Source: a virus. From it: a stretch of 29,604 bases of DNA. Positions within the stretch are counted from its first letter, which is position 1, and each line of letters starts with the position of its first letter. A program made the position numbers and the translations under genes. Positions 12,859 to 29,604 of the stretch are shown piece after piece. The stretch covers positions 1-29,604 of the IMG/VR virus record IMGVR_UViG_3300029448_000273; one strand, given 5' to 3'. Below the pieces are notes generated by a model. The model was not told where the DNA came from. It made no database searches and was given only the letters and a program-made list of their open reading frames with translations.

Positions 12859-13896
12859 ATGTGCGGAATTGCAGCGTACTCTGGTAAGAGTATAAACATA
12901 CTAAAGGCTATGCATCTATTAAACGACAACGACGAGCGTGGTGGGCATAGCACAGGTATATATGTTGAGAACGGAACGTTCAAGAAACTATATAAAACGA
13001 CAGGTAAGAGTAGAAACTTACTAAAAACTATAGACCATACTTATGCAGAGTTGTTTATAGGTCATACACGTTATGCTACTCACGGTGAAAAGACTGCTGA
13101 GAACACACACCCTTATATGATTGGTAATTATATCGGTTGTCACAATGGTGTGTTAAATAATTACGAAGACCTAGCAAAAAAGTATAAGTTTAAAGTACCA
13201 GATGTAGACAGTAAAGCAATATACAAAGCTTTAGAAGCAGCAGGTACTGAGACTCTTGGTGAACATGGAGGCACAATCAATGCAGTGTGGACAGAAAGAG
13301 ATGGAAAGCTCTATGTTTATCGTAGAAATAACCCATTGTATATACTAGAGACAGAAGATGGTGTGTATTTCTCATCATTAGAAGAAGGTCTTGAGTCTAT
13401 ATGTCCTGATGAATGTAAAGTAGTTGAAGTAGAACCTGAAATACTATTCATATATGAGAATGGTAAGCTTATAGATTCAGTTGCTATTGAAACTACATAC
13501 AAGCCAGAGCCATACAAGGTTGTTAAGAATTGGACTGACTACAGAAATGTTGATAAAGGTGGTAAAAATTATAATGGTGACTATGATGCACAGTGGTTTA
13601 ATAGCTACAACACTACATACAATAAAGCTTACAAAGGTAAAGGTACATTACTTTATGAAGAAACTCCAGACTTTGGTCTTGAGATATACCCTGATAAAGA
13701 CTGCCAACCTAAAGAATTATCTGATGTTATGCATAGCATAGAGTTATTAACATCTATTATAGAAGAGAATTATGAGTTCTTTTCAGATAGAGATATTGAT
13801 ACTTTAAATACAATGTTAGCAGAGTTAGCCAGGTCATGCGATGAGCTTGAAGATTGGTTAGCAGCTGATAATTCACAAGAAGAGTTACCATTCTAA
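12859..13896 (+). CDS. Class II glutamine amidotransferase
   Basis: 345 aa. Residues 1 to about 200 form an N-terminal-nucleophile GAT-II domain. Met-Cys-Gly-Ile at the start places Cys2 as nucleophile once Met is removed, which fixes this start. Arg27 and GG lie in DERGGHSTG; GHTRYATHG (68-76), HNGVLNN (95-101) and DSKA (117-120) match glutamine-binding motifs of the GlmS, PurF and AsnB superfamily. It would release ammonia from glutamine. Residues about 210-345 are not an obvious synthase domain; they are Tyr/Asn-rich, then helical, ending EELPF, similar to SSB tails. The gene is coupled by TAATG to a 58-aa ORF and then an amidoligase, suggesting ammonia or glutaminyl chemistry for that enzyme. 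Confidence 0.88.
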   Translation: MCGIAAYSGKSINILKAMHLLNDNDERGGHSTGIYVENGTFKKLYKTTGKSRNLLKTIDHTYAELFIGHTRYATHGEKTAENTHPYMIGNYIGCHNGVLNNYEDLAKKYKFKVPDVDSKAIYKALEAAGTETLGEHGGTINAVWTERDGKLYVYRRNNPLYILETEDGVYFSSLEEGLESICPDECKVVEVEPEILFIYENGKLIDSVAIETTYKPEPYKVVKNWTDYRNVDKGGKNYNGDYDAQWFNSYNTTYNKAYKGKGTLLYEETPDFGLEIYPDKDCQPKELSDVMHSIELLTSIIEENYEFFSDRDIDTLNTMLAELARSCDELEDWLAADNSQEELPF

Positions 13897-14072
13897 TGAT
13901 GGCTAATATGGAAAAGAACTTAATCTTTATATCTGACCAAAAGTATATTGATTCTGTTCTTACTCTCACACGAGAGCTACGAGAGCGTTCTAATAATAAG
14001 AACGATGTTGATACAGTTATTGATAAACTTCTAAATATCAAAGAGTTATGCCAGAAGAAAACGAAGAGTTAG
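13896..14072 (+). CDS. Small helical protein between amidotransferase and amidoligase
   Basis: 58 aa, MMANMEKNLIFISDQKYIDS and onward, ending CQKKTKS. Its ATG overlaps the amidotransferase stop (TAATG) and its stop lies 25 nt inside the amidoligase gene, so all three are translationally linked. It is predicted helical and charged (TRELRERSNNKNDVDTV). No family is recognised; a subunit, adaptor or simple coupling peptide are all possible. Confidence 0.55.
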   Translation: MMANMEKNLIFISDQKYIDSVLTLTRELRERSNNKNDVDTVIDKLLNIKELCQKKTKS

Positions 14073-15541
14073 AAATATTTGCAGACAATGCAACTAACGA
14101 ATCTAACGATTTAGATGTTACACAGTTTGCAAACCCTGAACCTGTATGCGAGCCTGTTGTAGAATTACCTGAAGATTATGTATTAGCTAGAGTTGAAGAT
14201 GGAGCTGAATACAAAGAGTATGCAGTTCCTAAAGCTTGGGTTAATGAAGAAGGTTTCATTATGACATGCCTTGGATGTTGTGAAGTAGAAGAACTAATAG
14301 ATATGCATGAGATTGCATATGTAGAAGGTTCATGGCGTGAGATATGTAACTTCGATGACATAGTATGGTCAGAAGCATGTGAAGAATATCTAAATAGAGA
14401 TAATGCTCAGTTTGTATACACAAGGCATGGTGAAGATTATGTTCACTATGAAGATGATTACGTTAGATGTAATGATACAGACGATTGTTATATCAATCAA
14501 GATGTAGCTAATTATCATGACTGTCATTACTGTGAAAGCTGTGATGAATGGCGTGCATGTGATAACCATGATTTTGACGAATGTGGTAACGAGAGCCGTG
14601 GAGGTAGATTTAATAATCAAAAGAACTCTCAACCACACTATACAAATGCTGCTCAAAAACTAAAGTATCACAAAGACTATGGTACTAATAGTCCTACATG
14701 GTCTATAAGTAATGGTCTTAGATATACATTTGGTGTAGAGATAGAAACAGATAGCGGTAGATTAGATGAATGGGATGACCTTAATCTAAATGCTGTATAT
14801 GATGGTTCTATTAATGGTAATGAATATGTTACAGGTGTATTACGTGGTGACTATGGTTTCAATCATCTCAAGAAGATAATGAACCGTATTAACACTAGTG
14901 ATGTTCAGCATCATGTTACACGCAGTTGTGGTATACATGTTCATATCGGTGGTCGTTTCAATAGACGATTCACTATCATGCTTCTGCGATTGTGCTATCA
15001 CTTGCAAGATGATATATTCCGTATGCTCCCACCTTCGCGTGTAAACAACACTTACTGTAAGTTTATACCTACATGGGCTTCTCAAGTTAATTTTACTAAC
15101 TACAAAGAAGTTCTTGCTAAGTATATATACGGTGGAGATGGCGAAATAGTTCTTGATAAAGAGCATAACAAAAAGCGTGGTATCGACAGGTATCGCGGTA
15201 CACGTTATACATGGGTTAATATCAACAACTTTAGCACAGCCAGCGGGAGACCGACTGTAGAATTCAGACCACACAGCTCAACACTCAATTATGATAAAAT
15301 TCGTAATTGGATATTGATATGTATGTCCCTTGTATACTATGCAGAGAACATGCAAAAACAAATTTACTACAACATTGGAGATGTTACACTTAAAGGTGTA
15401 TTAGATGCAGCGTTAGGTAGTAATTTTGGTAAACAGTTATATGATTATCATTTAGAACGTAGAGGAAAGTTTGCAGCACAGCATAAAGACAATGCTAAGT
15501 TGCCATCTGACATCATCAGACTTAATGGTAGTATTGTTTAA
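14048..15541 (+). CDS. COOH-NH2 amidoligase (Amidoligase_2-like) with N-terminal Cys-rich domain
   Basis: 497 aa. Residues about 70-180 are Cys/His-rich, with clusters at C74/C77/C78, C141/C147, C159/C162/C165 and C171/C179. These probably form one or two zinc-ribbon or treble-clef modules. Residues about 225-430 carry motifs of the glutamine-synthetase-like amidoligase family: FGVEIE (228-233), DGSI (252-255), CGIHVHIG (294-301), WVNINNF (389-395) and TVEFRPHSSTLNYDKI (403-418). Such enzymes are thought to use ATP to join a carboxylate to an amine, forming peptide-like bonds. With the GAT-II gene upstream and a GGCT-like gene later in the operon, it forms a peptide-modification module. Substrate unknown: cell-wall peptide, a protein side chain or a small metabolite. 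Confidence 0.85.
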   Translation: MPEENEELEIFADNATNESNDLDVTQFANPEPVCEPVVELPEDYVLARVEDGAEYKEYAVPKAWVNEEGFIMTCLGCCEVEELIDMHEIAYVEGSWREICNFDDIVWSEACEEYLNRDNAQFVYTRHGEDYVHYEDDYVRCNDTDDCYINQDVANYHDCHYCESCDEWRACDNHDFDECGNESRGGRFNNQKNSQPHYTNAAQKLKYHKDYGTNSPTWSISNGLRYTFGVEIETDSGRLDEWDDLNLNAVYDGSINGNEYVTGVLRGDYGFNHLKKIMNRINTSDVQHHVTRSCGIHVHIGGRFNRRFTIMLLRLCYHLQDDIFRMLPPSRVNNTYCKFIPTWASQVNFTNYKEVLAKYIYGGDGEIVLDKEHNKKRGIDRYRGTRYTWVNINNFSTASGRPTVEFRPHSSTLNYDKIRNWILICMSLVYYAENMQKQIYYNIGDVTLKGVLDAALGSNFGKQLYDYHLERRGKFAAQHKDNAKLPSDIIRLNGSIV

Positions 15542-15542
15542 T

Positions 15543-15627
15543 ATATAATAGGTAAGAGAAATGAGTAAACTCTTTTAAGACCGTGACTCCAGATGAGCCT
15601 GTCAAACATCATGTGCGCCTATTATAT
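15543..15627 (+). ncRNA. Intergenic structured element closed by a 10-bp stem
   Basis: ATATAATAGG (15543-15552) pairs perfectly with CCTATTATAT (15618-15627) just after the amidoligase stop. Inside, AAGAG (15554-15558) pairs with CTCTT (15570-15574), and a second arm is possible around TGAC/GTCA (15584-15604). There is no T tract, so it is not a terminator. It resembles the other closed folds in this operon by layout, not by sequence. Confidence 0.45.
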
Positions 15628-15640
15628 TAACACTTAAATT

Positions 15641-15850
15641 ATGGGATATTACAAAAAGCTAGCTATTATGCTAGAAGAACAACGTCTTGCTGAACTATAT
15701 GAAGGAGCTAACTTAGAGCTTATTATATTAGAAGCAAGAAGAAGAGAAGAACAAGAAAAACTTTTCGAACAAGAACAAGTAATTCAAGAAGCTATTAACG
15801 AAGATAAAGAAAAAAATGGATTTGACAGTAGAACAACAGAGAAGCCGTAA
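15641..15850 (+). CDS. Small coiled-coil protein
   Basis: 69 aa, nearly all helical and highly charged (LEARRREEQEKLFEQEQVIQ), so likely a coiled coil or partner-binding helix. Its last 35 nt overlap the next gene in another frame. It begins 13 nt after the fold at 15543-15627. No family is recognised. Confidence 0.55.
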   Translation: MGYYKKLAIMLEEQRLAELYEGANLELIILEARRREEQEKLFEQEQVIQEAINEDKEKNGFDSRTTEKP

Positions 15851-16700
15851 TATATTCTTACGAGAACATGGCTTAGACTTTACAGTAAGCAAAAGAAAAA
15901 GTATGTTTCACGACGCAGGTGATTCAGTAGAAACACCATTCTTTTGCACAGTAAACGACAAAACAAAACAAGCATTAGGTGCTGTAAAAAGTAAATACGT
16001 AGTTAAACAAAACGCAGATTTACTCGACATTATTCTTCACAAAATTGGTGATGGTAATTATGATTTATTTAACTCTAAAGGTGGTACGTTTAATAATGGT
16101 AAGAAAGTTTATTTCTTTATTAAACATAAAACAACATCTGATTGGGGTCAAGAACATGCTGAAAACTATATATATGCTTTATCATCTCATGATGGTAGTC
16201 AAAGATTAGTATTCGGTGTAGCTAATAAGATACACAGTTGTAGTAATATGTTTGGTATGCTGATGAATGATTCAGAAAACAAACATATGATTAAACACAC
16301 TAAACGTATTGATGATTTACAATATGACAATACATTAGATGCTTTAATCCAGAACAACTTTAAGGGTATCTCTTATCTAATGCGTAAAATGCAGGAAGTT
16401 AGTATACAAGATAGTATTAAAGATAAAATCTTTGATATTGTAGCTAACTCTAAAGCTCAGCGTTTATCTGCTAAATATCACAAAGACCGTGACTTGCTAT
16501 CACAATGTGTGATGGATGAGTTAGGTACTAAAGGTGATACGCTTTATGGTTTATTTAATGGTGTAACTAATTTTTATACACACCACGCTTTTGAAGATGA
16601 TAAATTAATTAGTAATATTACAGGTTCAGGTAACAAGAAAATTACCACTGTAGTTAAAGCACTAGTTAACGATATGAAAGAGCGAGGATGTCTGAATTAA
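15816..16700 (+). CDS. DUF932 phage/plasmid-like protein
   Basis: 294 aa. The N-terminal half matches the pattern of the DUF932 / TIGR03299 phage-plasmid family: a start with FLREHGLDFTVSKRKSMF, then FFCTVNDKTKQALGAVKSKYVVKQNADLLDII, and a later beta-rich core (KKVYFFIKH, HDGSQRLVFG). The length is slightly short for the family. These proteins are common next to phage and plasmid replication genes, but their biochemical role is not known. Here it is followed, with overlaps, by the helicase-loader and DnaB genes, so a replication-linked role is the reasonable inference. Confidence 0.75.
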   Translation: MDLTVEQQRSRNIFLREHGLDFTVSKRKSMFHDAGDSVETPFFCTVNDKTKQALGAVKSKYVVKQNADLLDIILHKIGDGNYDLFNSKGGTFNNGKKVYFFIKHKTTSDWGQEHAENYIYALSSHDGSQRLVFGVANKIHSCSNMFGMLMNDSENKHMIKHTKRIDDLQYDNTLDALIQNNFKGISYLMRKMQEVSIQDSIKDKIFDIVANSKAQRLSAKYHKDRDLLSQCVMDELGTKGDTLYGLFNGVTNFYTHHAFEDDKLISNITGSGNKKITTVVKALVNDMKERGCLN

Positions 16701-17281
16701 CCAAAGCAGCAAACAATCTAATAAAAGCATGGGAAGATGCAGAGTTGAATATTACTCTGTTATCTTTCCTTGTATTAGATTATCACATATCTATGCAAGT
16801 GAACGAAACAAGAAATGAAGTTCTAATGCATATATATGGTCTAACACCTGACCAGTTAGATGATTGCTATGCGGACCTAGAGTTTGCAGGTTATGTAATT
16901 GACAAAGGAGAGTTTATATCTATAACAGGTAAAGCTAACCAGGCATTTAACAGGAGAATAAAACGCATGTCACAAGGAGAAAAGAATTCTCTTGAATATG
17001 ATTTCGAAAGATTTTGGAAATTGTTTCCTCGTAAGGCAGGCAAGAAAAAAGCTTTATTCGAATGGATGCGTTTACGTCCAGACAAAAATGCTATAGAATA
17101 TATTCTTAAGTCTTTGCGTAATCAGATTAAATGGAAGAAACAAGAAGAAGCAAAATTTAATTTTGTTCCTGAGTTTCAAGACGCAGAAAGATGGCTAAGA
17201 AATGCAAGGTATGATGATGAGTATACATTAGATAAGCCAAAAATAAATATTAATACTAAACCAGACAGAGATGAAAGATGA
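16688..17281 (+). CDS. Replication initiator / helicase-loader-like protein
   Basis: 197 aa. Residues about 15-90 look like a winged-helix domain (LTPDQLDDCYADLEFAGYVI, then a beta hairpin). A linker leads to a C-terminal module (FERFWKLFPRKAGKKKALFEW, with FVPEFQDAERWLRNARYDDE at 160-180) of the kind found in phage replication organisers and DnaT/DnaD-like loaders. It would melt or mark the origin and recruit the DnaB helicase, whose gene overlaps it by 11 nt. Family-level call is good; the DNA site is unknown. Confidence 0.75.
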   Translation: MSELTKAANNLIKAWEDAELNITLLSFLVLDYHISMQVNETRNEVLMHIYGLTPDQLDDCYADLEFAGYVIDKGEFISITGKANQAFNRRIKRMSQGEKNSLEYDFERFWKLFPRKAGKKKALFEWMRLRPDKNAIEYILKSLRNQIKWKKQEEAKFNFVPEFQDAERWLRNARYDDEYTLDKPKININTKPDRDER

Positions 17282-18578
17282 TGTAGAAAAGATATTGTTG
17301 TCTAAGTTGATGAACAAGCAGAAAGATTATTACGATAATCATGAAGCGTTGCAACCTAGCTTATTTAACAATATAGTATATAAAGATATTTTTAATTGGT
17401 TAGATGCAGAGTATCAACAAGGTAATAAGTTTGATATGATTAAGGCTAGTAATGATTTATCTCATATAAAAGATATATCATATGTATTAGCACAGTTGTA
17501 CAGCGACAATGCAACGTGGACTTATCATACTAAATCTTGTATTGAACACCTTAAAGATGCAAGTAAACGTGATGCTATTAAAAATCTTTGTCACGATGTT
17601 TTATCTTCATTAGATGATAAAGATGTATCTGAACATATTACTGCGTTAGAAAACTCTTTAGTTAATATGAACCGTTCTGACAATGGTGGTATCATTGAGT
17701 TAAAGACTCACATGAAACAAGCTGTTGCCCTCATAGAAAAGAATTCACTATCACAAGGTCTTTCAGGTATACCTTCAGGCTTTCCGTCTATAGATAAGTT
17801 TACAGGCGGTTGGCAACCACAAGACCTTATTATCGTCGGTGGTGCATCTTCTATGGGTAAGACATCGTTTGCATTAGCTCTTGCATATAACGCTGCCCTA
17901 AGTGGCTGTAAATCGGCTGTTTTCTCTTATGAAATGTCGTCTAATCAGCTTGTTTCAAGAATTATTAGTAACGAAACAGGTATTGACAATAGGTATCTAA
18001 TTAAAGGTACACTTACAGATGATGAATGGTCGTCAATTCATAGTTCTATGGGACGTATTGAAAAAGTGCCTATGTTTATTGATGAATGTAGCAATACAAG
18101 CCTCAGGTATTTAATGAACAAAGTTCGACAATACGTAATAACTAAGGGAGTAAAACTTGTAATGGTAGATTACCTTCAACTTGTTAGTAATCTTGTAAAA
18201 GGAAGAAGCAGGGAGCAGGAGGTATCTATCATTGCAAGGTCCCTTAAGAACTTAGCTAAAGAATTAGATATAACTGTAGTTGCTTTATCGCAATTAAGTA
18301 GAGGTGTAGAAAGAAATGAAGGTTCTAGACCAATGTTATCTAATCTTAGAGAATCAGGTGAGATAGAACAAGCAGCCGATGCAGTGTTGTTTGTATATAG
18401 ACCAGAGTATTATGGAATTCTCGCAGACCATAATGGTAACAATATTAAAGGTATGGCCGAAATAATTTTTGCTAAAGGTCGTAACATAGGTATTGGTAGC
18501 AAATGGCTACGATGGATTAATTATCTAACAAAGTTTGAAGAACTTTCTAATAAAGATAAAGATATGATTTTTTGTTAA
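17271..18578 (+). CDS. dnaB: Replicative DNA helicase, DnaB family
   Basis: 435 aa, typical length. Residues 1 to about 110 are a DnaB-like N-terminal domain and about 165-435 a RecA-like motor. Motifs include SGFPSIDKFTGGWQPQDL before Walker A GASSMGKTS (191-199), the catalytic glutamate in FSYEMS (Glu221), Walker B LVMVDYLQLV, ITVVALSQLSRGVE with the conserved Gln/Ser sensor, and LRESGEIEQAADAVLFVYRPE. It unwinds DNA 5' to 3' at the fork. No primase domain is fused, and no primase or polymerase is seen here, so these are either elsewhere in the phage or supplied by the host. Confidence 0.95.
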   Translation: MKDDVEKILLSKLMNKQKDYYDNHEALQPSLFNNIVYKDIFNWLDAEYQQGNKFDMIKASNDLSHIKDISYVLAQLYSDNATWTYHTKSCIEHLKDASKRDAIKNLCHDVLSSLDDKDVSEHITALENSLVNMNRSDNGGIIELKTHMKQAVALIEKNSLSQGLSGIPSGFPSIDKFTGGWQPQDLIIVGGASSMGKTSFALALAYNAALSGCKSAVFSYEMSSNQLVSRIISNETGIDNRYLIKGTLTDDEWSSIHSSMGRIEKVPMFIDECSNTSLRYLMNKVRQYVITKGVKLVMVDYLQLVSNLVKGRSREQEVSIIARSLKNLAKELDITVVALSQLSRGVERNEGSRPMLSNLRESGEIEQAADAVLFVYRPEYYGILADHNGNNIKGMAEIIFAKGRNIGIGSKWLRWINYLTKFEELSNKDKDMIFC

Positions 18579-18598
18579 TAAAAAAAACATTATATTTG
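18571..18598 (+). promoter_or_regulatory. Internal promoter before the HU-like gene (TTTG-N16-TATATTTG)
   Basis: TTTG at 18571-18574, a 16-nt spacer and TATATTTG at 18591-18598 match the Bacteroidota promoter. The ATG follows the -7 box by only 9 nt, so the mRNA would be nearly leaderless. It probably boosts the recombination genes independently of the early promoter. Confidence 0.75.
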
Positions 18599-18607
18599 TA
18601 CAATCTT

Positions 18608-18871
18608 ATGAAAACTACTGAAAACATTATAGATAAGATAAGCAAGGAGTTACCTTTTGATAAAAAAACTATTCGTGAAGTTGTTAATAAAACCTTCTCA
18701 GAAGTTAAAGAACGAATGGGTAAAAAAGAAAAGGTAATGCTTAGAGGTTTTATGAAATTTGTATGTGCACAAGAAAAGAAAACACAAACAAACAAAACCA
18801 TAGATGAAATAAAAGAGTACCAAACAATCAAAACCAAACCAAATGAAACCAAACGTAATAGTAGTAGGTAA
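18608..18871 (+). CDS. HU/IHF-like DNA-binding protein
   Basis: 87 aa from ATG 18608 (MKTTENIIDKISKELPFDKK). An upstream in-frame ATG lies inside the promoter and is rejected. The pattern of an N-terminal helix pair (ISKELPFDKKTIREVVNKTFSEV) followed by KVMLRGFMKFVC matches the HU/IHF GxGxF-type saddle region, with Met in place of one Gly. The usual beta-arm is short or divergent and the C-terminus is Lys/Thr-rich. It would bend or coat phage DNA in replication or recombination. Overlaps the Sak4-like gene by 29 nt. Confidence 0.65.
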   Translation: MKTTENIIDKISKELPFDKKTIREVVNKTFSEVKERMGKKEKVMLRGFMKFVCAQEKKTQTNKTIDEIKEYQTIKTKPNETKRNSSR

Positions 18872-19478
18872 AAGTGGCTCAGGTAAGTCCACATCCCTAC
18901 GTAATCTCAACCCAGAGACTACAGCTGTAATTAATACAGAAAGAAAACAACTACCATTCAAAGGTGCAAAGAATTTTATGAACGTACCTGTACAATCTCT
19001 TAAAGATTTTAATGCAGCAATGACTAAAGCAATGAGCTCTGATAAAGTAGAGACTATTGTTATAGAGTCATTTACTTCTTTAATAGAAATGATATACCGT
19101 GAAGCTGATGTAAGATTTAAAGGCTTTGATGTATGGTCTTTTTATAACAAGGAAATAGATAGAATACTAAACATGTCTAAAAACACAGACAAACACATAG
19201 TATATCTTGCTATAGACGGTGCTTACGAAGGAGATGATGGAGTACAAGAAAGATTTGTTGCAGTCGATGGTAACAGATGGAAGAAACGTGTCGAGAAAGA
19301 GTTCGTTGTATGCTTATATACAGACAACCACTACAGTAACGACAAAACAGATTACAGATTTAGAACACAATCACAGGGTAAAGACTCTGCAAAAAGCCCT
19401 ATGGGTATGTTCGATGAACTGTATATAGACAATGACTTGCAAAAAGTTATTGATAAGTGTAATGAGTATTATAACTAA
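18843..19478 (+). CDS. Sak4-like RecA-fold recombinase ATPase
   Basis: 211 aa with Walker A GKSGSGKST at residues 9-17, Walker B-like TIVIESFTSL (71-80) and a compact RecA/AAA_24 core (about 70-190), the size of phage Sak4 single-strand annealing proteins. It would pair complementary DNA strands during phage recombination or repair. The SSB-like gene follows by 11 nt, and Sak4-family proteins typically act with a cognate SSB. A RecE-like nuclease and RusA-like resolvase lie further down the same operon. Confidence 0.8.
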   Translation: MKPNVIVVGKSGSGKSTSLRNLNPETTAVINTERKQLPFKGAKNFMNVPVQSLKDFNAAMTKAMSSDKVETIVIESFTSLIEMIYREADVRFKGFDVWSFYNKEIDRILNMSKNTDKHIVYLAIDGAYEGDDGVQERFVAVDGNRWKKRVEKEFVVCLYTDNHYSNDKTDYRFRTQSQGKDSAKSPMGMFDELYIDNDLQKVIDKCNEYYN

Positions 19479-19489
19479 AACCAGAAACT

Positions 19490-20035
19490 ATGTTTCCAAA
19501 CCTAAACACAGTAGAAGTTAAAGAAACAACTAACTATCTACCCGAAGGAGTACACACGCTTAAAATAGATAGCGTGTCTAACTCAAATCAAAAAGAAGGA
19601 TACACAGGTATCCCTTATGTAGAGTTTAAAACATCTAACAAAGATGGTGTAGCATTTTTAAAGTTTAATGGCGTTGAAGATACAACGTCACCTAAAGCTG
19701 CTGAAATACGTACATCTATCTTTAAAGGATTTTTAACTAATGCAGGCGCAAGTTCATTTGATAACCTACCTAAAGCATGTAAAGAAGTAGTAGGTAAAAC
19801 ATTAAATGTTTGTTTAGCAAGCAGAGAGTATTGGACTAACGATAAAGATACGGGCCAACCCGTAGTTAAATCAATAGTTGAATACAAATTTTCTAACCCA
19901 GAAGGTAAGTCTATTATGTGGAAAGATTCATATAATAAAAAGTTATCACCAACAGACCAAGCAGCATATCAAGCAGCTTACAACGCGTATGTAGGAGATA
20001 ACACTGTGGATAATAGCACAGACCTACCATTCTAA
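19490..20035 (+). CDS. Single-stranded-DNA-binding-like protein
   Basis: 181 aa. The N-terminal about 145 residues are beta-rich, with a plausible OB-fold character (EGVHTLKIDSV, YVEFKTSNKDGVAFLKFNGV, KTLNVCLASREYW). The C-terminus is an acidic tail ending STDLPF, which matches the protein-docking tip of SSBs. It probably coats ssDNA and partners with the Sak4-like protein encoded just upstream. The sequence is far from classical bacterial SSB, so this is a function call by tail and context. Confidence 0.65.
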   Translation: MFPNLNTVEVKETTNYLPEGVHTLKIDSVSNSNQKEGYTGIPYVEFKTSNKDGVAFLKFNGVEDTTSPKAAEIRTSIFKGFLTNAGASSFDNLPKACKEVVGKTLNVCLASREYWTNDKDTGQPVVKSIVEYKFSNPEGKSIMWKDSYNKKLSPTDQAAYQAAYNAYVGDNTVDNSTDLPF

Positions 20036-20036
20036 T

Positions 20037-20106
20037 ATAATATGTAGTGACCTATGATGGTTCCTTTAACTTTTTCATTACTTGATTAGGTCACTACTTA
20101 TATTAT
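20037..20106 (+). promoter_or_regulatory. Long intergenic stem enclosing the next start codon
   Basis: GTAGTGACCTA (20044-20054) pairs perfectly with TAGGTCACTAC (20087-20097). ATAATAT (20037-20043) pairs with ATATTAT (20100-20106) after a 2-nt bulge. The outer stem includes the A and U of the start codon at 20105, so translation should be repressed unless the hairpin is opened or cut. A 32-nt loop is T-rich. No T tract follows. Confidence 0.65.
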
Positions 20107-20503
20107 GAAACTAAAACACATTGCTAAAGTTGTAGACAGTAAGCTACACTTTGCTAATAAAGAAAGACTTAACATAGATGTTACCAGATACAATGATAAA
20201 ACTGTAGAGGTAACAATCAAAGAATATAAACCAAAACGTAGTAATCAATTGAATCAATACTATTGGGGAGTTGTCGTGAAAATTATATCTGATTATACAG
20301 GGTATACAAAAGAAGAAACTCATGAGCTATTAAAGCAAACTTTTTTAAAAAAGAAAGTCCTCATAGAAGATACATGGTATGACACTACAGACAGCACTAC
20401 TAAATTAAACAATAAAGAAATGCTAGAGTTTATAGAAGAAGTTAAGCAGTGGGCAGCGCAAACGCTGTATGTATATATACCAGACCCTCATGAAAAACAA
20501 TAA
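20105..20503 (+). CDS. NinB-like recombination-associated protein
   Basis: 132 aa. The central motif PKRSNQLNQYYWGVVVKIISDYTGYTKEETHELLKQTFL resembles the ORF/NinB recombination protein family (RS-x-QN-x-x-W pattern) found next to RusA-like resolvases in lambdoid phages. NinB-type proteins bind ssDNA and assist recombination. Its start codon lies in a strong hairpin, and its end overlaps the RusA-like gene by 14 nt. The similarity is modest, so the family is a best guess. Confidence 0.55.
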   Translation: MKLKHIAKVVDSKLHFANKERLNIDVTRYNDKTVEVTIKEYKPKRSNQLNQYYWGVVVKIISDYTGYTKEETHELLKQTFLKKKVLIEDTWYDTTDSTTKLNNKEMLEFIEEVKQWAAQTLYVYIPDPHEKQ

Positions 20504-21089
20504 AATTTTTATACCAGGAAATGTACCGTCCAGTAAAAACAGTAAACAATGGACAGGTAAAATGCTTATACACAGTAAGGCTACAAGAAATTATATTAGA
20601 GATACTAAACAAGTTTATGTAAAGAATAAAGAAGAGTTCAAGTCCCAGGTAGTAGACCGAGCGGGAATCGAACTCCCTTATCCTTTACATATTGACATGT
20701 ATTTTATAAGAAGCAGCCGTCGCAAATTTGATTATATCAATCCAGCTCAAACAGTACAAGACCTTATGGTTAAATGGGGTTGGATAGAAGATGATAACTG
20801 TGATATAATTATACCACACTTTAGTGGGCATCATGTAGATAAAGATAATCCAGGAGTATTAATTAAAGTTTTAGATATGAGCGAAGAATCATCAATTATG
20901 TGGGGTTACGAAGAGCCTAATCATATAAGAAGCGAAGAACATAGAAAGTTTCTTATTGAACAGTATAATCGTAACAGACCTACAGAAGAACACGTGCATA
21001 GTATGGCACAATTAAACAGAGCATTATTAACTAACGAAATAAAAGCATTAAGCGATGGCAAGGGAGACACACAAGACAAGACTACTTGA
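20490..21089 (+). CDS. RusA-like Holliday junction resolvase
   Basis: 199 aa from the ATG at 20490 (MKNNKIFIPGNVPSSKNSKQ). An upstream in-frame ATG would add seven residues inside the previous gene. The N-terminal IPGNVPSSKNS and central DYINPAQTVQDLMVKWGWIEDDN fit RusA: Asp/Asn-containing catalytic region plus the D-x-x-x-K-x-G-x-x-x-D-D pattern. It resolves branched recombination intermediates before packaging. About 70 C-terminal residues beyond the usual RusA length are charged and helical, a family extension of unknown role. Confidence 0.75.
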   Translation: MKNNKIFIPGNVPSSKNSKQWTGKMLIHSKATRNYIRDTKQVYVKNKEEFKSQVVDRAGIELPYPLHIDMYFIRSSRRKFDYINPAQTVQDLMVKWGWIEDDNCDIIIPHFSGHHVDKDNPGVLIKVLDMSEESSIMWGYEEPNHIRSEEHRKFLIEQYNRNRPTEEHVHSMAQLNRALLTNEIKALSDGKGDTQDKTT

Positions 21090-21297
21090 TTACCTAAAAA
21101 GGTATGGTAGTATAACATCATTAGAAGCTATAAGAGATTTAGGTAACACTAGATTATCTGCTACTATATTTGTTCTTAAAGATGAAGGACACAACATAAC
21201 AACAAAAGATAGTAGAGTAGCGACAAGATGGACTAACAAAGACGGAAGCAGAAAAACAACAACAGTATCTAAATATATATTAAATGAAAGCAACTAA
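21055..21297 (+). CDS. Winged-helix DNA-binding protein
   Basis: 80 aa with MARETHKTRLLDYLKRYGSI followed by TSLEAIRDLGNTRLSATIFVLKDEGHNI. This matches the helix-turn-helix_39 style found in many phages, with a wing at VATRWTNKDGSRKTTTVSKY. It overlaps both neighbours (35 nt upstream, 14 nt downstream). It is a probable small transcription or DNA-binding regulator; the target is unknown. Confidence 0.75.
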   Translation: MARETHKTRLLDYLKRYGSITSLEAIRDLGNTRLSATIFVLKDEGHNITTKDSRVATRWTNKDGSRKTTTVSKYILNESN

Positions 21298-22141
21298 AGA
21301 AAAAGTAGAAGACGTAAAAGCTCAAGAAAATAATATACCTGAACAACTAGAGCTTAGAGAAATTAAAAAATTAAGCGACGATTACATTATAGATGATGAA
21401 ACATATTTCGCTGACAACATGTATGTAACAAACAGTATGCTTAAAACTTTACTAACAGGTAGTACATATAACCTAGAGCATTACATAAACTCTGAGCATA
21501 AAGAAACAGAGTCTTTAATAGTAGGTAGCGCTTTTCATTGTTATCTATTAGAAAGAGATGAGTTTGATTCTCGTTACGTATATGAGCCAAAGTTTGATAA
21601 AAGAACTAAAGCAGGTAAAGAAGCGTACGCTGAATTTGAAAAAACTTTAGACGGCAGAAAACCTATACCTGAACATTATCAACAAGTCTTTGAAACTATT
21701 ATGAAAAGACTAGACTCTCATGATAACGCAAGAGAAATGATTAAAGATGCACCTGACAGAGAAGTAATACATTTCTGGGAAGATGTAAAAACAGGTCTTA
21801 AATGTAAAGGTAAAGTTGATGCAGAAGGTAAAAATTATTTGTTAGATATAAAAACTACAAGTAAAAAAGCTGACATGGTATCCTTTCAAAAGTATGCAAC
21901 AGATTATATGTTAGCACAACAAGCTGCTTTTTATATAAATGGTACAGGTAAAAAAGATTTTTACTTTATTCTATTTGAATTAAAGGCTCCATATAACATA
22001 GCTGTATACAAAATGAGTGATAACGCTATATCATATGGTAGTGCTTATGTAGATATGACATTAAATATGTACAAGGAATGGAAAGATTCAGGAGAGTCTT
22101 GGAAGCAACACCTTAATGCAGGTAGAATAATTCTTGTATAA
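21284..22141 (+). CDS. RecE/exonuclease VIII-like PD-(D/E)XK nuclease
   Basis: 285 aa. After a 35-residue charged lead, VTNSMLKTLLTGSTY starts the core. Motifs are IVGSAFHCYLLE (80-90), KGKVDAEGKNYLLDIKTTSKK with D179, D188 and K190, and a QAAFYI motif (about 213-218, Gln212). These fit PD-(D/E)XK nucleases of the YqaJ/RecE type. It would resect phage DNA ends to make 3' ssDNA for the Sak4-like annealing protein. The Sak4-SSB-nuclease-resolvase set makes a complete phage recombination module. Confidence 0.8.
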   Translation: MKATKEKVEDVKAQENNIPEQLELREIKKLSDDYIIDDETYFADNMYVTNSMLKTLLTGSTYNLEHYINSEHKETESLIVGSAFHCYLLERDEFDSRYVYEPKFDKRTKAGKEAYAEFEKTLDGRKPIPEHYQQVFETIMKRLDSHDNAREMIKDAPDREVIHFWEDVKTGLKCKGKVDAEGKNYLLDIKTTSKKADMVSFQKYATDYMLAQQAAFYINGTGKKDFYFILFELKAPYNIAVYKMSDNAISYGSAYVDMTLNMYKEWKDSGESWKQHLNAGRIILV

Positions 22142-22548
22142 TGGAGAATGTATTTGTATATGGCACATTGAAAAGAGGTCACGGGAACCACGTTTTATTA
22201 AAAGACAGTGAGTTCCTTGGACCCGCTTCAACTAAAGATAAGTATATAATGTACAGTTCAGGTATACCTTATGTATCTAAATCAATGAATCTTACTAGAA
22301 TAATAGGAGAGCTATACAATGTAGATGAATTAGTTTTAAACTATTTAGATATGTTAGAGAACCATCCTGGCTGGTATAAAAGAGAAAAGATAACTATAGA
22401 TTATATAAGTAATAAAGGAAAAGTTAAATCAACAGATGCATGGTTGTATTTTAATGAACAAGTACCACATTTAGCATCTGTTATAGAATCAGGAGTTTAT
22501 GGAAAAGAAGAAAAGTCGATACTACACGAACAAAAGTATAAGAGCTAA
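22141..22548 (+). CDS. Gamma-glutamyl cyclotransferase-like (AIG2/GGCT fold) protein
   Basis: 135 aa. VFVYGTLKRGHGNHVLL (4-20) is the family substrate-loop signature (YGTLK). LDMLENHPGWYKRE carries the probable catalytic glutamate (Glu73) and SDAWLYFNE-like strands end the core. Family members open gamma-glutamyl-amine linkages to give pyroglutamate or a cyclised product. Its ATG overlaps the nuclease stop. In the same operon are GAT-II and amidoligase genes, so it may reverse or trim the bond they make. Small GGCT-fold proteins also have non-enzymatic roles. Confidence 0.8.
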   Translation: MENVFVYGTLKRGHGNHVLLKDSEFLGPASTKDKYIMYSSGIPYVSKSMNLTRIIGELYNVDELVLNYLDMLENHPGWYKREKITIDYISNKGKVKSTDAWLYFNEQVPHLASVIESGVYGKEEKSILHEQKYKS

Positions 22549-26136: not shown

Positions 26137-26516
26137 TACATTATGTTTTTATCGTTAACTCCTATATCTTTAAGCCATTGTCTTATTTTAATACCTTCTT
26201 TTTCATCAAAAAAAAGTGATGAACCTCCTATTTTTAAATGTTGATTATATAATAGGTGATACATCACAATGTGTTCTAGACTGTCGTACTGTTTCCAAGT
26301 AGCAGTGTCAGAAGCTTTGCCTTCTAATCTTCCTCCAATATAGGCGACATGTTTATATGTCTTTTTGTTAGAAGGGTGCTCTGAATCTGCTTTATACTTA
26401 GACAGCTGTCCATTAAAATGGACTATATCGCAAGATACAGATAAATTATATTCTTTTTTCTCAGGTACATAATCTTTAGCAGTGCCTGTAGAATGAATAA
26501 TTAAATATTCAATCAC
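26136..26516 (-). CDS. Amidase_2-like protein lacking catalytic residues
   Basis: 126 aa. Blocks YLIIHSTGTA (4-13), HVAYIGGRLEGKASDTAT (56-73) and KIGGSSLFFDEKEGIKIRQWL (95-115) line up with Bacteroidota N-acetylmuramoyl-L-alanine amidases. The usual second zinc histidine (GHRD) reads GGSS at 97-100 and the catalytic Cys/Lys segment reads KEGIKI. Only His8 is kept of the metal site. It is probably a peptidoglycan-binding or regulatory protein rather than an enzyme. It overlaps the holin gene by 4 nt. Confidence 0.65.
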   Translation of the reverse strand: MIEYLIIHSTGTAKDYVPEKKEYNLSVSCDIVHFNGQLSKYKADSEHPSNKKTYKHVAYIGGRLEGKASDTATWKQYDSLEHIVMYHLLYNQHLKIGGSSLFFDEKEGIKIRQWLKDIGVNDKNIM

Positions 26517-26899
26517 CTTTTTTTAATTTTTTCTATACTTCTACCAGCAAAATAAGCACCGTATACAGTGATTAAGAGCGTTTGGTAGATTGGAACATAA
26601 GCTGGAGAAATACTAAACTCTCCTGCGTTGCCATCAAATATGGATATTACAACAAACATAGCCGTTAGAAATATACATATTAAAGGCCTTATGTTTTTAG
26701 ATAACCAATTATCAGACTTCATGTCGGCTTCCCATCGCCTTGTGACTTGTTCTTGAGCCTGAGATTCAGCTTCCATCATTACTTCTTTAATAGCTTTTTT
26801 AGCTACTAAAGCCTCTTCTTTAGATGTAGATAAATTATCTATTACATTGCCTACCTTTTCTATTACTCCCCCGCCTAAAAAACTTAATAATTTACTCAT
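26513..26899 (-). CDS. Holin (3TM, gene-transfer-agent type)
   Basis: 128 aa. A charged N-terminal half (residues 1-60) ends in WLSKNIRPLICIFLTAMFV, the signature of GTA_holin_3TM proteins. Two clear transmembrane helices follow (about 70-88 and 103-122), then YFAGRSIEKIKKR. It would permeabilise the inner membrane to release the endolysin encoded immediately upstream. Confidence 0.8.
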   Translation of the reverse strand: MSKLLSFLGGGVIEKVGNVIDNLSTSKEEALVAKKAIKEVMMEAESQAQEQVTRRWEADMKSDNWLSKNIRPLICIFLTAMFVVISIFDGNAGEFSISPAYVPIYQTLLITVYGAYFAGRSIEKIKKR

Positions 26900-27363
26900 A
26901 TACTTGTAACTATATCTGCAACTTTATATGCTGTGTCACCATCTTTATCTTTATAAGCTTCTAAAACCATATTCCTGTTTTTCTTTTCTTTTAAAGATAT
27001 ATGAATCCAAGCAAAGTCAAATTCATTAATCATTTGGTCAAATTGTATACCTGACTTTAAAATCCAGTTATATATTTTTTGATTATTCATTTGACCTTCA
27101 GACCAAAATTGAATATCAACTGCTTCAGCTTTACTATGTTGCGATTTTTTACTTCCTCCAATAGCCCTATTTAATTCAGGGCTACGATAACCAGAAGTTA
27201 TTCTAATAGGCCCGAGCTCATCACGCATAGGTTGTATAAGGTTAGTTATTAACCTTTGCATACTTTTTAAGTGCTCGTTCTTTGGAGTATTATCTATATT
27301 TAATCTTTTTGCCGTGTTACTTCTTGTAACCTCTGACAATGTAAAGTTTTTACTTAGTCTCAT
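26896..27363 (-). CDS. M15-family peptidase endolysin
   Basis: 155 aa. ITSGYRSPELNRAIGGSKKS leads to the metal-binding motif HSKAEAVD (His76, Asp83), then WIHIS with His121. These match Peptidase_M15_3 D-Ala-D-Ala-type or L-Ala-D-Glu peptidases used as phage endolysins. The protein lacks a signal peptide, as expected with a holin-released lysin. It overlaps the holin start. Confidence 0.85.
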   Translation of the reverse strand: MRLSKNFTLSEVTRSNTAKRLNIDNTPKNEHLKSMQRLITNLIQPMRDELGPIRITSGYRSPELNRAIGGSKKSQHSKAEAVDIQFWSEGQMNNQKIYNWILKSGIQFDQMINEFDFAWIHISLKEKKNRNMVLEAYKDKDGDTAYKVADIVTSI

Positions 27364-28001: not shown

Positions 28002-29036
28002 TTAAAATATTACATAATTAAGTCCTACACTAAAGTTGTGCCATTTTCTATTCCAATACTTATTATACTTCCCTTCTACAAATATACCTAAACTTTTGTT
28101 AAACCTATATCCAAAGATTAAACCACCAGAATAGTCAACCCATTGATTACCTTTGTAGTTATAGTAAGAGTAGTCGTTACCTGTATCTAAATGATAAGGC
28201 ATTACGTTACCCCATGAGTGTAACCAAAAGTCTTTTGTAAAATAATAATAATCAAAACCAAATACAAAAGAATACTCTACAATGTTTTTTAAAGTATTTC
28301 TTTGTTTTTCTACATAATTATTTATAACTTCAGGTATGACAACTTCTTCCCAGACTTCTTGACTATTAGCTACAAGAGTTCCGTCAGGAGAAAAATACTC
28401 GCCCCCGAGAGTAATGTTATATCCTTCTTGTAATGCAAGGTATGTATAATGCAATGTACCATTATCTAAAACCCAATCTGCAAGAGGGTCAAAACCATAA
28501 GGTTCGGCAAGTCTTTGCACTAAACCCCCGTTAAATGAAAGCTTGCCGTCCCTTATTTGTTTTCTATATCTTTCTGATGCTTCAAAATATTTTATATCTG
28601 CAAATCCATCTTCTAAATATTCTACTTTACCCACCCATTTGTCTGCTACATAACGGACAAAATGATGTTGGTTTGTAAAGTTAACACCTAAACGTCTTAC
28701 AAAATCAGCTTCGAATAAATACTCAAAGCCATCGACTCTACCAATTGTGGCTGCATCACTGTATGAATTTTCTGTACCATTATAAAAGGTAAGAGCTCTA
28801 TTTTCATAACCAAATCTTTTTATTTTTCTTATACCTATAGATAATGTATAATCAAAAGGTGTTTCTATTATTTGCTCTTCTAATGTTCCAGATGTAATAG
28901 ACCAAATTTGGTCATCTCCAAGAGATGTACCACCGTTAACGGCTGCATATACAGTAGAGTATTTAAATATCTTATGTAATCCCTGAGCACTTCCTAAAAA
29001 AGGGACAAGTAATAATATTATTAGTATTTTTTTCAT
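28002..29036 (-). CDS. Predicted outer-membrane beta-barrel
   Basis: 344 aa with a signal peptide (MKKILIILLLVPFLGSA). The body is rich in alternating aromatic/hydrophobic strands (YNITLGGEYFS, GFDYYYFTKDFW, YSGGLIFGYRF). The C-terminus SVGLNYVIF ends in Phe, as in outer-membrane barrel proteins. It probably inserts into the host outer membrane or is secreted. Its ATG overlaps the upstream gene by 4 nt. Rare in phages, so a moron-like or host-surface-modifying role is possible. Confidence 0.6.
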   Translation of the reverse strand: MKKILIILLLVPFLGSAQGLHKIFKYSTVYAAVNGGTSLGDDQIWSITSGTLEEQIIETPFDYTLSIGIRKIKRFGYENRALTFYNGTENSYSDAATIGRVDGFEYLFEADFVRRLGVNFTNQHHFVRYVADKWVGKVEYLEDGFADIKYFEASERYRKQIRDGKLSFNGGLVQRLAEPYGFDPLADWVLDNGTLHYTYLALQEGYNITLGGEYFSPDGTLVANSQEVWEEVVIPEVINNYVEKQRNTLKNIVEYSFVFGFDYYYFTKDFWLHSWGNVMPYHLDTGNDYSYYNYKGNQWVDYSGGLIFGYRFNKSLGIFVEGKYNKYWNRKWHNFSVGLNYVIF

Positions 29037-29604
29037 TTCTTTAATACTTTTGTTGTGCTAGTGTTACCATTATATGTCACGCTAAAATTATATATTCCAG
29101 AAGGAAGTAAACTTACATCGAGTTGATTTAAACCTTTATGTGTTTGACTTTCTTTTATTTTAATAATAAGTTTACCTGTTATATCATATACTTTAATTCC
29201 TACAGAACCATTAGTTAAAATATTTAACGTGTCATCCATAGGGTTAGGATACATAACTACATTATGTCCTCTAAGTAAATCTCTTGTGTCTAATGCGCTA
29301 TCCCAAGAACAACTCCAATATATTTGTTGACATTTATCATCCCAAGAATTATTACAACAATAAGGGTCAATCATAATTACCCAAGCATAACACGTGTCAT
29401 TTAACCAATACGGAACTCCTGGGCCATCAATACACCCTGCGTCATATAAACAACTACCATCTTCAGTATTTGCTAGTGCATTATAATTATGTGCGGTGTT
29501 ATCCATACAACCTTCATCTACTGCAATACAGCCACCATTGTTTGTGTTAGCTAAAGAGTCATAGTTAAATGAATCTTCATCTGTACAACCGTAAACTATA
29601 TCTA
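29033..29604 (-). CDS. Repeat protein with T9SS sorting domain (5' end outside window)
   Basis: The frame stays open to the window edge; about 190 residues are visible. They contain at least two copies of a GC-[TM]-D-x-[AS]-x-NY-[ND]-x-[LA]-A-N-T-x-[DN]-G-[SG]-C-type unit (for example GCMDNTAHNYNALANTEDGS) that is widespread in secreted Bacteroidota proteins. About the last 80 residues form a T9SS type A C-terminal sorting domain (VVMYPNPMDDTLNI, VYDITGKLIIKI, LPSGIYNFSVTYNGNTSTTK). The domain would direct a periplasmic protein across the outer membrane for attachment or release. It precedes the barrel gene with a 4-nt overlap. Confidence 0.85.
   Translation of the reverse strand, partial: DIVYGCTDEDSFNYDSLANTNNGGCIAVDEGCMDNTAHNYNALANTEDGSCLYDAGCIDGPGVPYWLNDTCYAWVIMIDPYCCNNSWDDKCQQIYWSCSWDSALDTRDLLRGHNVVMYPNPMDDTLNILTNGSVGIKVYDITGKLIIKIKESQTHKGLNQLDVSLLPSGIYNFSVTYNGNTSTTKVLKK

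Follow-up and report, generated by a model that had tools for sequence, protein, structure and literature searches.

A reduced amidotransferase, amidoligase and cyclotransferase cassette predicted in a clade of crAss-like phages

A cassette built around a class-II glutamine amidotransferase (GAT-II), an amidoligase and a gamma-glutamyl cyclotransferase (GGCT) occurs in many unrelated phages, and its role has only been guessed at since 2009. The window, the whole 29,604-base marine IMG/VR virus contig that was analysed, contains a gene for each of these three enzymes, and raises the question of whether they form one functional unit and, if so, what bond they make and on what acceptor. Judged by its major capsid, portal and large terminase genes the window is a fragment of a crAss-like phage; the capsid protein matches Crass_capsid (7.8e-29), the terminase is ~29% identical to those of sequenced crAss-like phages, and a DNA-level search against sequenced phages revealed no close relative.

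All three enzyme genes lie in the early/replication region of the window (Table 1). A DUF932 gene follows the amidoligase directly and is kept in 15 of 23 related loci. The SSB-like protein ends in DLPF, with a similar tip in most of its homologues. Near the right end and on the other strand, a GTA_holin_3TM holin-like gene adjoins an M15_3 peptidase gene, and the two are likely a lysis pair. The last gene, the N-terminus of which is cut by the contig end, codes for a protein with a type IX secretion sorting domain (Por_Secre_tail), which is also present in a 726-aa ORF of related contig G003 (L025) and a 713-aa ORF of G023 (L160); a CHU_C domain is encoded in L160:12704-13972(-), and these phage proteins may make use of the host type IX secretion system (T9SS).

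Table 1. Coordinates and main properties of the features discussed, in window positions.
Feature	Coordinates	Strand	Properties
Early/replication region	11-24.5 kb	+	Genes for DUF932 protein, replication initiator-like protein, DnaB helicase, AAA_24 (Sak4-like) ATPase, SSB-like protein, RusA-like nuclease, PD-(D/E)XK exonuclease
Class-II glutamine amidotransferase (GAT-II)	12859..13896	+	345 aa; Cys2 nucleophile; Pfam GATase_6 E=1.6e-13, above the curated cut-off
58-aa ORF	13896..14072	+	Small protein of close relatives, between GAT-II and amidoligase
Amidoligase_2 protein (glutamine synthetase/GCS-fold carboxylate-amine ligase)	14048..15541	+	497 aa; domain ~aa 222-478
Cys/acidic/aromatic-rich front domain of amidoligase	14165..14620	+	~aa 40-190; specific to the reduced clade
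DUF932 protein	15816-16700	+	6e-16
SSB-like protein	19490-20035	+	
GGACT/GGCT-fold gamma-glutamyl(amine) cyclotransferase	22141..22548	+	135 aa; YGTL motif, catalytic Glu73
Holin-like and M15_3 peptidase genes	26513-27363	-	GTA_holin_3TM 5e-7; M15_3 1.1e-17
Por_Secre_tail protein	29033-29602	-	2.5e-14

The sequence-only reading had described a GAT-II with intact Cys2, a 58-aa ORF, an amidoligase and a GGCT-like ORF; all four are where it placed them, and the three enzymes score above their Pfam cut-offs. Residues C2, R27, G28, R71, N96, G97 and D117 of GAT-II are invariant in an alignment of 38 sequences, and alignment with GlmS (profile match 4e-19) shows the same glutamine-site residues in both (R71, T74, H75, N96-G97 and D117). 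Unlike GlmS, AsnB and PurF, GAT-II carries no synthetase domain in cis; the C-terminal part of the AF2 model (pLDDT 85) consists of a disordered linker (230-273) and a helical hairpin (helices 285-303 and 310-338), and EgtC and other stand-alone class-II members likewise lack such a domain. The model fits EgtC (4zfj, TM 0.72 by target) as well as it does the GlmS glutaminase domain (0.68), so that two roles are live: GAT-II could release ammonia from glutamine, or could cleave a gamma-glutamyl amide in the manner of EgtC or Dug3.

The translational overlaps noted earlier are 1 nt and 25 nt long: the TAA stop codon of GAT-II and the ATG of the 58-aa ORF have one base in common (13896), and the last 25 nt of the ORF are shared with amidoligase, the ATG of which is at 14048. 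The closest relatives have a homologue of the ORF in this position, and its product reached no family cut-off in a Pfam search. We rejected it as an essential partner, since GAT-II overlaps amidoligase directly (gap -14 to -20) in L022, L036, L043 and others; it is a clade-specific gene that only close relatives have and that the wider clade can do without.

The amidoligase matches Pfam Amidoligase_2 (PF12224) over aa 255-428 (E=2.2e-15; 57.6 bits, cut-off 22) and has the GxExE, HxH and EFR active-site motifs of that family, with E231, E233, D252, E259, H297, H299, R386, E405 and R407 invariant among 46 sequences. Foldseek matches of its AF2 model (pLDDT 85.6) include many phage amidoligases and YbdK, glutamine synthetase (GS), GmaS and glutamate-cysteine ligase (GCL), all glutamate-carboxylate ligases. 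The scores against solved structures are modest (best E 1.8e-4, TM ~0.4 by target), and these relationships emerge by fold search only, a sequence search of solved structures with the amidoligase profile giving no match. At the sensitivity used, a search of bacterial genomes yielded essentially no homologues of the window-type amidoligase; the sole chromosomal match is a 5-kb archaeal MAG contig that lacks GAT-II, GGCT or other partners.

The GGCT protein matches Pfam GGACT (PF06094; E=8.3e-22; 78.4 bits, cut-off 22.8), and among solved structures it is best matched by chains of AIG2-like domain-containing protein 1 (2kl2, 3jub). Y7, G8 and L10 of the YGTL loop (Y7-G8-T9-L10) are invariant and E73 is conserved in at least 90% of 18 sequences, and thus the active-site residues on which the earlier reading depended are intact and conserved in amidoligase and GGCT alike. 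That reading also placed GGCT in the same operon. The gene is indeed on the same strand in a tight run of genes, but it lies 6.6 kb downstream of amidoligase with ~11 genes between, and the gene that it overlaps, by 1 base, is the upstream exonuclease gene, so that co-transcription can only be presumed. Because of this distance and the coupling to the exonuclease gene, the tie between GGCT and the module rests on other genomes.

An amidoligase alignment search retrieved 80 viral contigs, 74 of which have at least 600 bases upstream and could be evaluated; GAT-II immediately precedes amidoligase in 72 of these 74. Two layouts can be distinguished. In 35 loci the module is full, with a COOH-NH2 ligase, an ATP-grasp ligase or both, and often with a class-I GATase and GGCT nearby; full modules are present in phi14:2, cr108_1, a Leptolyngbya phage, PaP3, GP100, and Alcaligenes, Klebsiella and Vibrio phages. 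The other 45 loci lack these ligases in the stretch available, most of them belonging to the clade of the window and a few being full-type contigs cut short. GGCT is present in 20 of the 23 reduced-type or unclassified loci with enough flanking sequence (12/12 where the flanks are long and 8/11 where only the downstream one is), positioned in related loci 5.5-7.7 kb downstream of amidoligase. GAT-II, amidoligase and GGCT all persist in L032, L044 and L046 despite the loss or relocation of the replication genes beside them. Full modules often contain a second, shorter GAT-II-like gene directly 3' of amidoligase (L050:9070-9732, L052:9050-9712, L058:9094-9843 and others), which in L050 matches GATase_4 (1.3e-5).

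An independent, GGCT-anchored scan of viral contigs revealed 15 that encode single-chain fusions of a GAT-II domain followed by GGCT and that fall into 7 clusters at 90% identity (L160:9494-10558, L168:9509-10549, L163:6085-7050 and 12 others); the Pfam match of the fusions is strong to GGACT and weak to GATase. The fusion adjoins a clear amidoligase (1e-19) in L163, L164 and L182, and elsewhere, as in L160 and L168, a divergent protein with GFEIE/GIEAE, ERDGS, CGGHIT and E[FI]RLF motifs and weak profile scores; L151 and L157 have compact cassettes of amidoligase, GAT-II and GGCT, and a B. subtilis phage, 055SW001, has amidoligase along with GGCT. Because the layout is conserved in independent contigs, chance linkage is untenable. 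That the three enzymes belong together, as the sequence-only reading had proposed, is strongly supported by the genomic comparison of adjacency, GGCT retention and fusions, and the co-occurrence in related phages on which it had staked that proposal is found. The same evidence, along with the invariant active sites and the persistence of the layout over deep divergence and after synteny breaks, makes it very improbable that these are bystander auxiliary metabolic genes for glutamine or glutathione salvage that are near each other by accident; GGCT and GAT-II folds are common in metabolism, but related amidoligases are, at the sensitivity of the search, all but missing from bacterial genomes.

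The evaluable reduced loci form a single clade, all lying on one side of a branch with SH-aLRT 100 in an amidoligase tree of 84 rows built by a quick method with a midpoint root; 16.7 changes are expected when the labels are shuffled. Neither the window nor any of 18 related contigs (38-71 kb) has a match to the profile for the type 2 COOH-NH2 ligase (PF14395) or to that for ATP-grasp, although both profiles match in 3/3 positive controls; the Pfam RimK model gives no match either. As the surveyed contigs are mostly fragments, this absence from the reduced clade appears strong, not absolute. The window thus seems to represent a well-supported crAss-like clade that has dropped the ATP-grasp and COOH-NH2 ligases, has dispersed GGCT, and has a different, Cys/acidic-rich front on its amidoligase. 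Most of this front domain is predicted confidently in the AF2 model, and its HMM matches 61 survey amidoligases, finding those of this clade but only one full-type amidoligase, weakly (E=0.022). The cysteine-rich front noted earlier exists, although its cysteines are not strictly conserved: in 29 reduced-clade sequences C162 is present in 14, C165 in 18 and C179 in 18. Because of this partial conservation we rejected a zinc-finger reading; some members may have a structural zinc site, which would not be an essential feature of the domain.

What might these three enzymes do together? Class-II amidotransferases turn glutamine, or a different gamma-glutamyl amide, into a gamma-glutamyl thioester, ligases of the GS/GCS fold activate glutamate-type carboxylates, and GGACT-type enzymes split gamma-glutamylamines, so a gamma-glutamyl amide is one chemical group on which all three can act. 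The explanation that we favour, with a probability of roughly 0.5, is that the phage GAT-II/amidoligase/GGCT cassette has here been pared down to three enzymes, with GAT-II and amidoligase acting as a glutamine-dependent amide or isopeptide synthetase and GGCT removing gamma-glutamylamine products. The stand-alone GAT-II would form the thioester on Cys2 and pass ammonia (or the gamma-glutamyl group) to the translationally coupled amidoligase, which would use ATP to activate a carboxylate, probably of glutamate type, and then make an amide or isopeptide bond; GGCT would cleave gamma-glutamylamine products with release of 5-oxoproline, so that the modification could be trimmed, edited or recycled. 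We infer the physical coupling of GAT-II to amidoligase, the direction of the chemistry and the role of GGCT. The idea of the sequence-only reading that a peptide or amide tag is made and removed fits this chemistry, but its steps stay predicted. As to the target, we can only guess; a peptide made or modified early in infection seems likely, with host cell-wall stem peptides as the leading candidate.

Modification of host cell-wall peptides, for superinfection exclusion or lysis timing, is a claim about the target that overlaps the explanation above, and we regard it as plausible though somewhat short of an even bet. Iyer et al. 2009 is reportedly the common source of this idea, with Hardies et al. 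2013 also said to be behind it, and LtsA/AsnB-type enzymes are a precedent for glutamine-dependent amidation of the wall. Glutamine-dependent cell-wall amidation by MurT/GatD is another (PMC3267633). For the larger cassette a change of the cell surface against superinfection has been put forward as a hypothesis (PMC5498523, PMC10580990, PMC11945000, PMC11318856), which extends to the cassettes of phiEco32, RIO-1, LUZ24 and PSA-HP1 (PMC5498523, PMC10580990, PMC11945000), and the passages on the larger cassette in these four papers report no experiment on its function. The sequence-only reading was thus right that function in phages is not established, but a larger version had already been published as a putative peptidoglycan-modification or superinfection-exclusion cassette (PMC5498523, PMC10580990, PMC11945000). 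The M15_3 peptidase and holin-like protein of the window phage are compatible with a link to the cell wall and are not proof of one; against it, the module of the reduced clade sits among replication and recombination genes and shows no linked wall-synthesis gene.

A different use of the same enzymes, which we consider possible but on balance unlikely, is a pathway that installs and removes gamma-glutamate by the logic of EgtA/EgtC or BtrJ/BtrG, with no transfer of ammonia: amidoligase, which resembles gamma-glutamyl ligases, would put gamma-glutamate on an amine, from which it would be taken off by GAT-II, working as a hydrolase, and by GGCT, working as a cyclotransferase. A role of GAT-II as a remover is favoured by its EgtC-like fold, on a protein that stands alone without a synthetase domain, and by the GAT-II::GGCT fusions, which suggest one substrate for both. 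The near-universal adjacency and overlap of GAT-II and ligase, however, resembles a glutaminase-synthetase pair and for that reason favours one, and two different removers would be redundant. We place the glutaminase-synthetase reading ahead of the remover reading.

A stronger version of the favoured explanation holds that the cassette was reduced once, in one deep crAss-like clade, to a self-sufficient core of GAT-II, amidoligase and GGCT, that the new front domain took over substrate recognition from the lost ligases, and that the outcome is a minimal, glutamine-dependent system for peptide tagging, equipped with a remover of its own and aimed at a protein rather than at peptidoglycan; this conjunction strikes us as quite doubtful. 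Slightly less credit still goes to a phage or host protein, nucleotide or DNA modified at the replication complex. The module has a variable early region on one side and the genes for DnaB, the SSB-like protein, RusA and the exonuclease on the other, and its place in the window beside replication genes, not lysis genes, makes a nucleic-acid or replication-protein target conceivable, but early metabolic genes of phages are often at such positions anyway. The GAT-II of the window also ends in EELPF, resembling the SSB acidic tip ([DE]..[IL]PF) and the end of the phage's own SSB-like protein, with DIPF in L001 and TLPF in L046. We rejected this tip as a sign of a role at the replication fork, as it is confined to these 3 of ~30 reduced-clade GAT-IIs, and similar tips are scattered elsewhere, including the ends of short ORFs in L019, L029 and L060.

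The reduced clade and the GAT-II::GGCT fusions point to an irreducible core of the cassette; reconstitution would then need two or three proteins instead of six or seven, which makes the bond and acceptor directly testable. No published description of either was found, Iyer et al. 2009 and Hardies et al. 2013 being represented by papers that cite them; as far as the literature search reached the reduced clade is new, and the kind of system is already published. The published form, as the source passage describes it, is a 'peptidoglycan modification cassette' of seven genes, among them those for amidoligases, ATP-grasp, GGCT and glutamine amidotransferase, in RIO-1-like phages, phiEco32, 7-11, PA11, tf, LUZ24, PaP3 and CW02 (PMC5498523). 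Like the window, it has homologous GAT-II, Amidoligase_2 and GGCT in the early/replication region, but it adds a PF14395 ligase, an ATP-grasp and often a class-I GATase and is mostly contiguous, whereas in the window clade the first two ligases are missing, GGCT is dispersed and the amidoligase front domain is different. The nearest annotated relatives by phage lineage are Cellulophaga phage phi14:2 and cr108_1 (Crassvirales), in which GAT-II also adjoins amidoligase (22-25% identity) and, in phi14:2, GGCT is present; they differ from the window in having a full module beside a uracil-DNA glycosylase, a longer GAT-II (492-638 aa) and no detected Cys-rich amidoligase front.

Outside the phages, ergothioneine synthesis similarly combines a GCS-type ligase, EgtA, with a stand-alone hydrolase of class-II amidotransferase fold, EgtC, that acts on a gamma-glutamyl amide, and of the two only EgtC was matched by fold here; unlike the window, this pathway has no GGCT and its substrate is a small molecule. 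In butirosin synthesis the ligase BtrJ adds a gamma-glutamyl group and the GGCT-fold enzyme BtrG removes it as 5-oxoproline, but BtrJ is an ATP-grasp enzyme and there is no GAT-II. MurT/GatD is alike in being a two-protein complex for glutamine-dependent amidation of a glutamate carboxylate, and yet is unrelated, pairing a class-I GATase with a Mur-ligase fold where the window has a class-II GATase and a GS-fold ligase.
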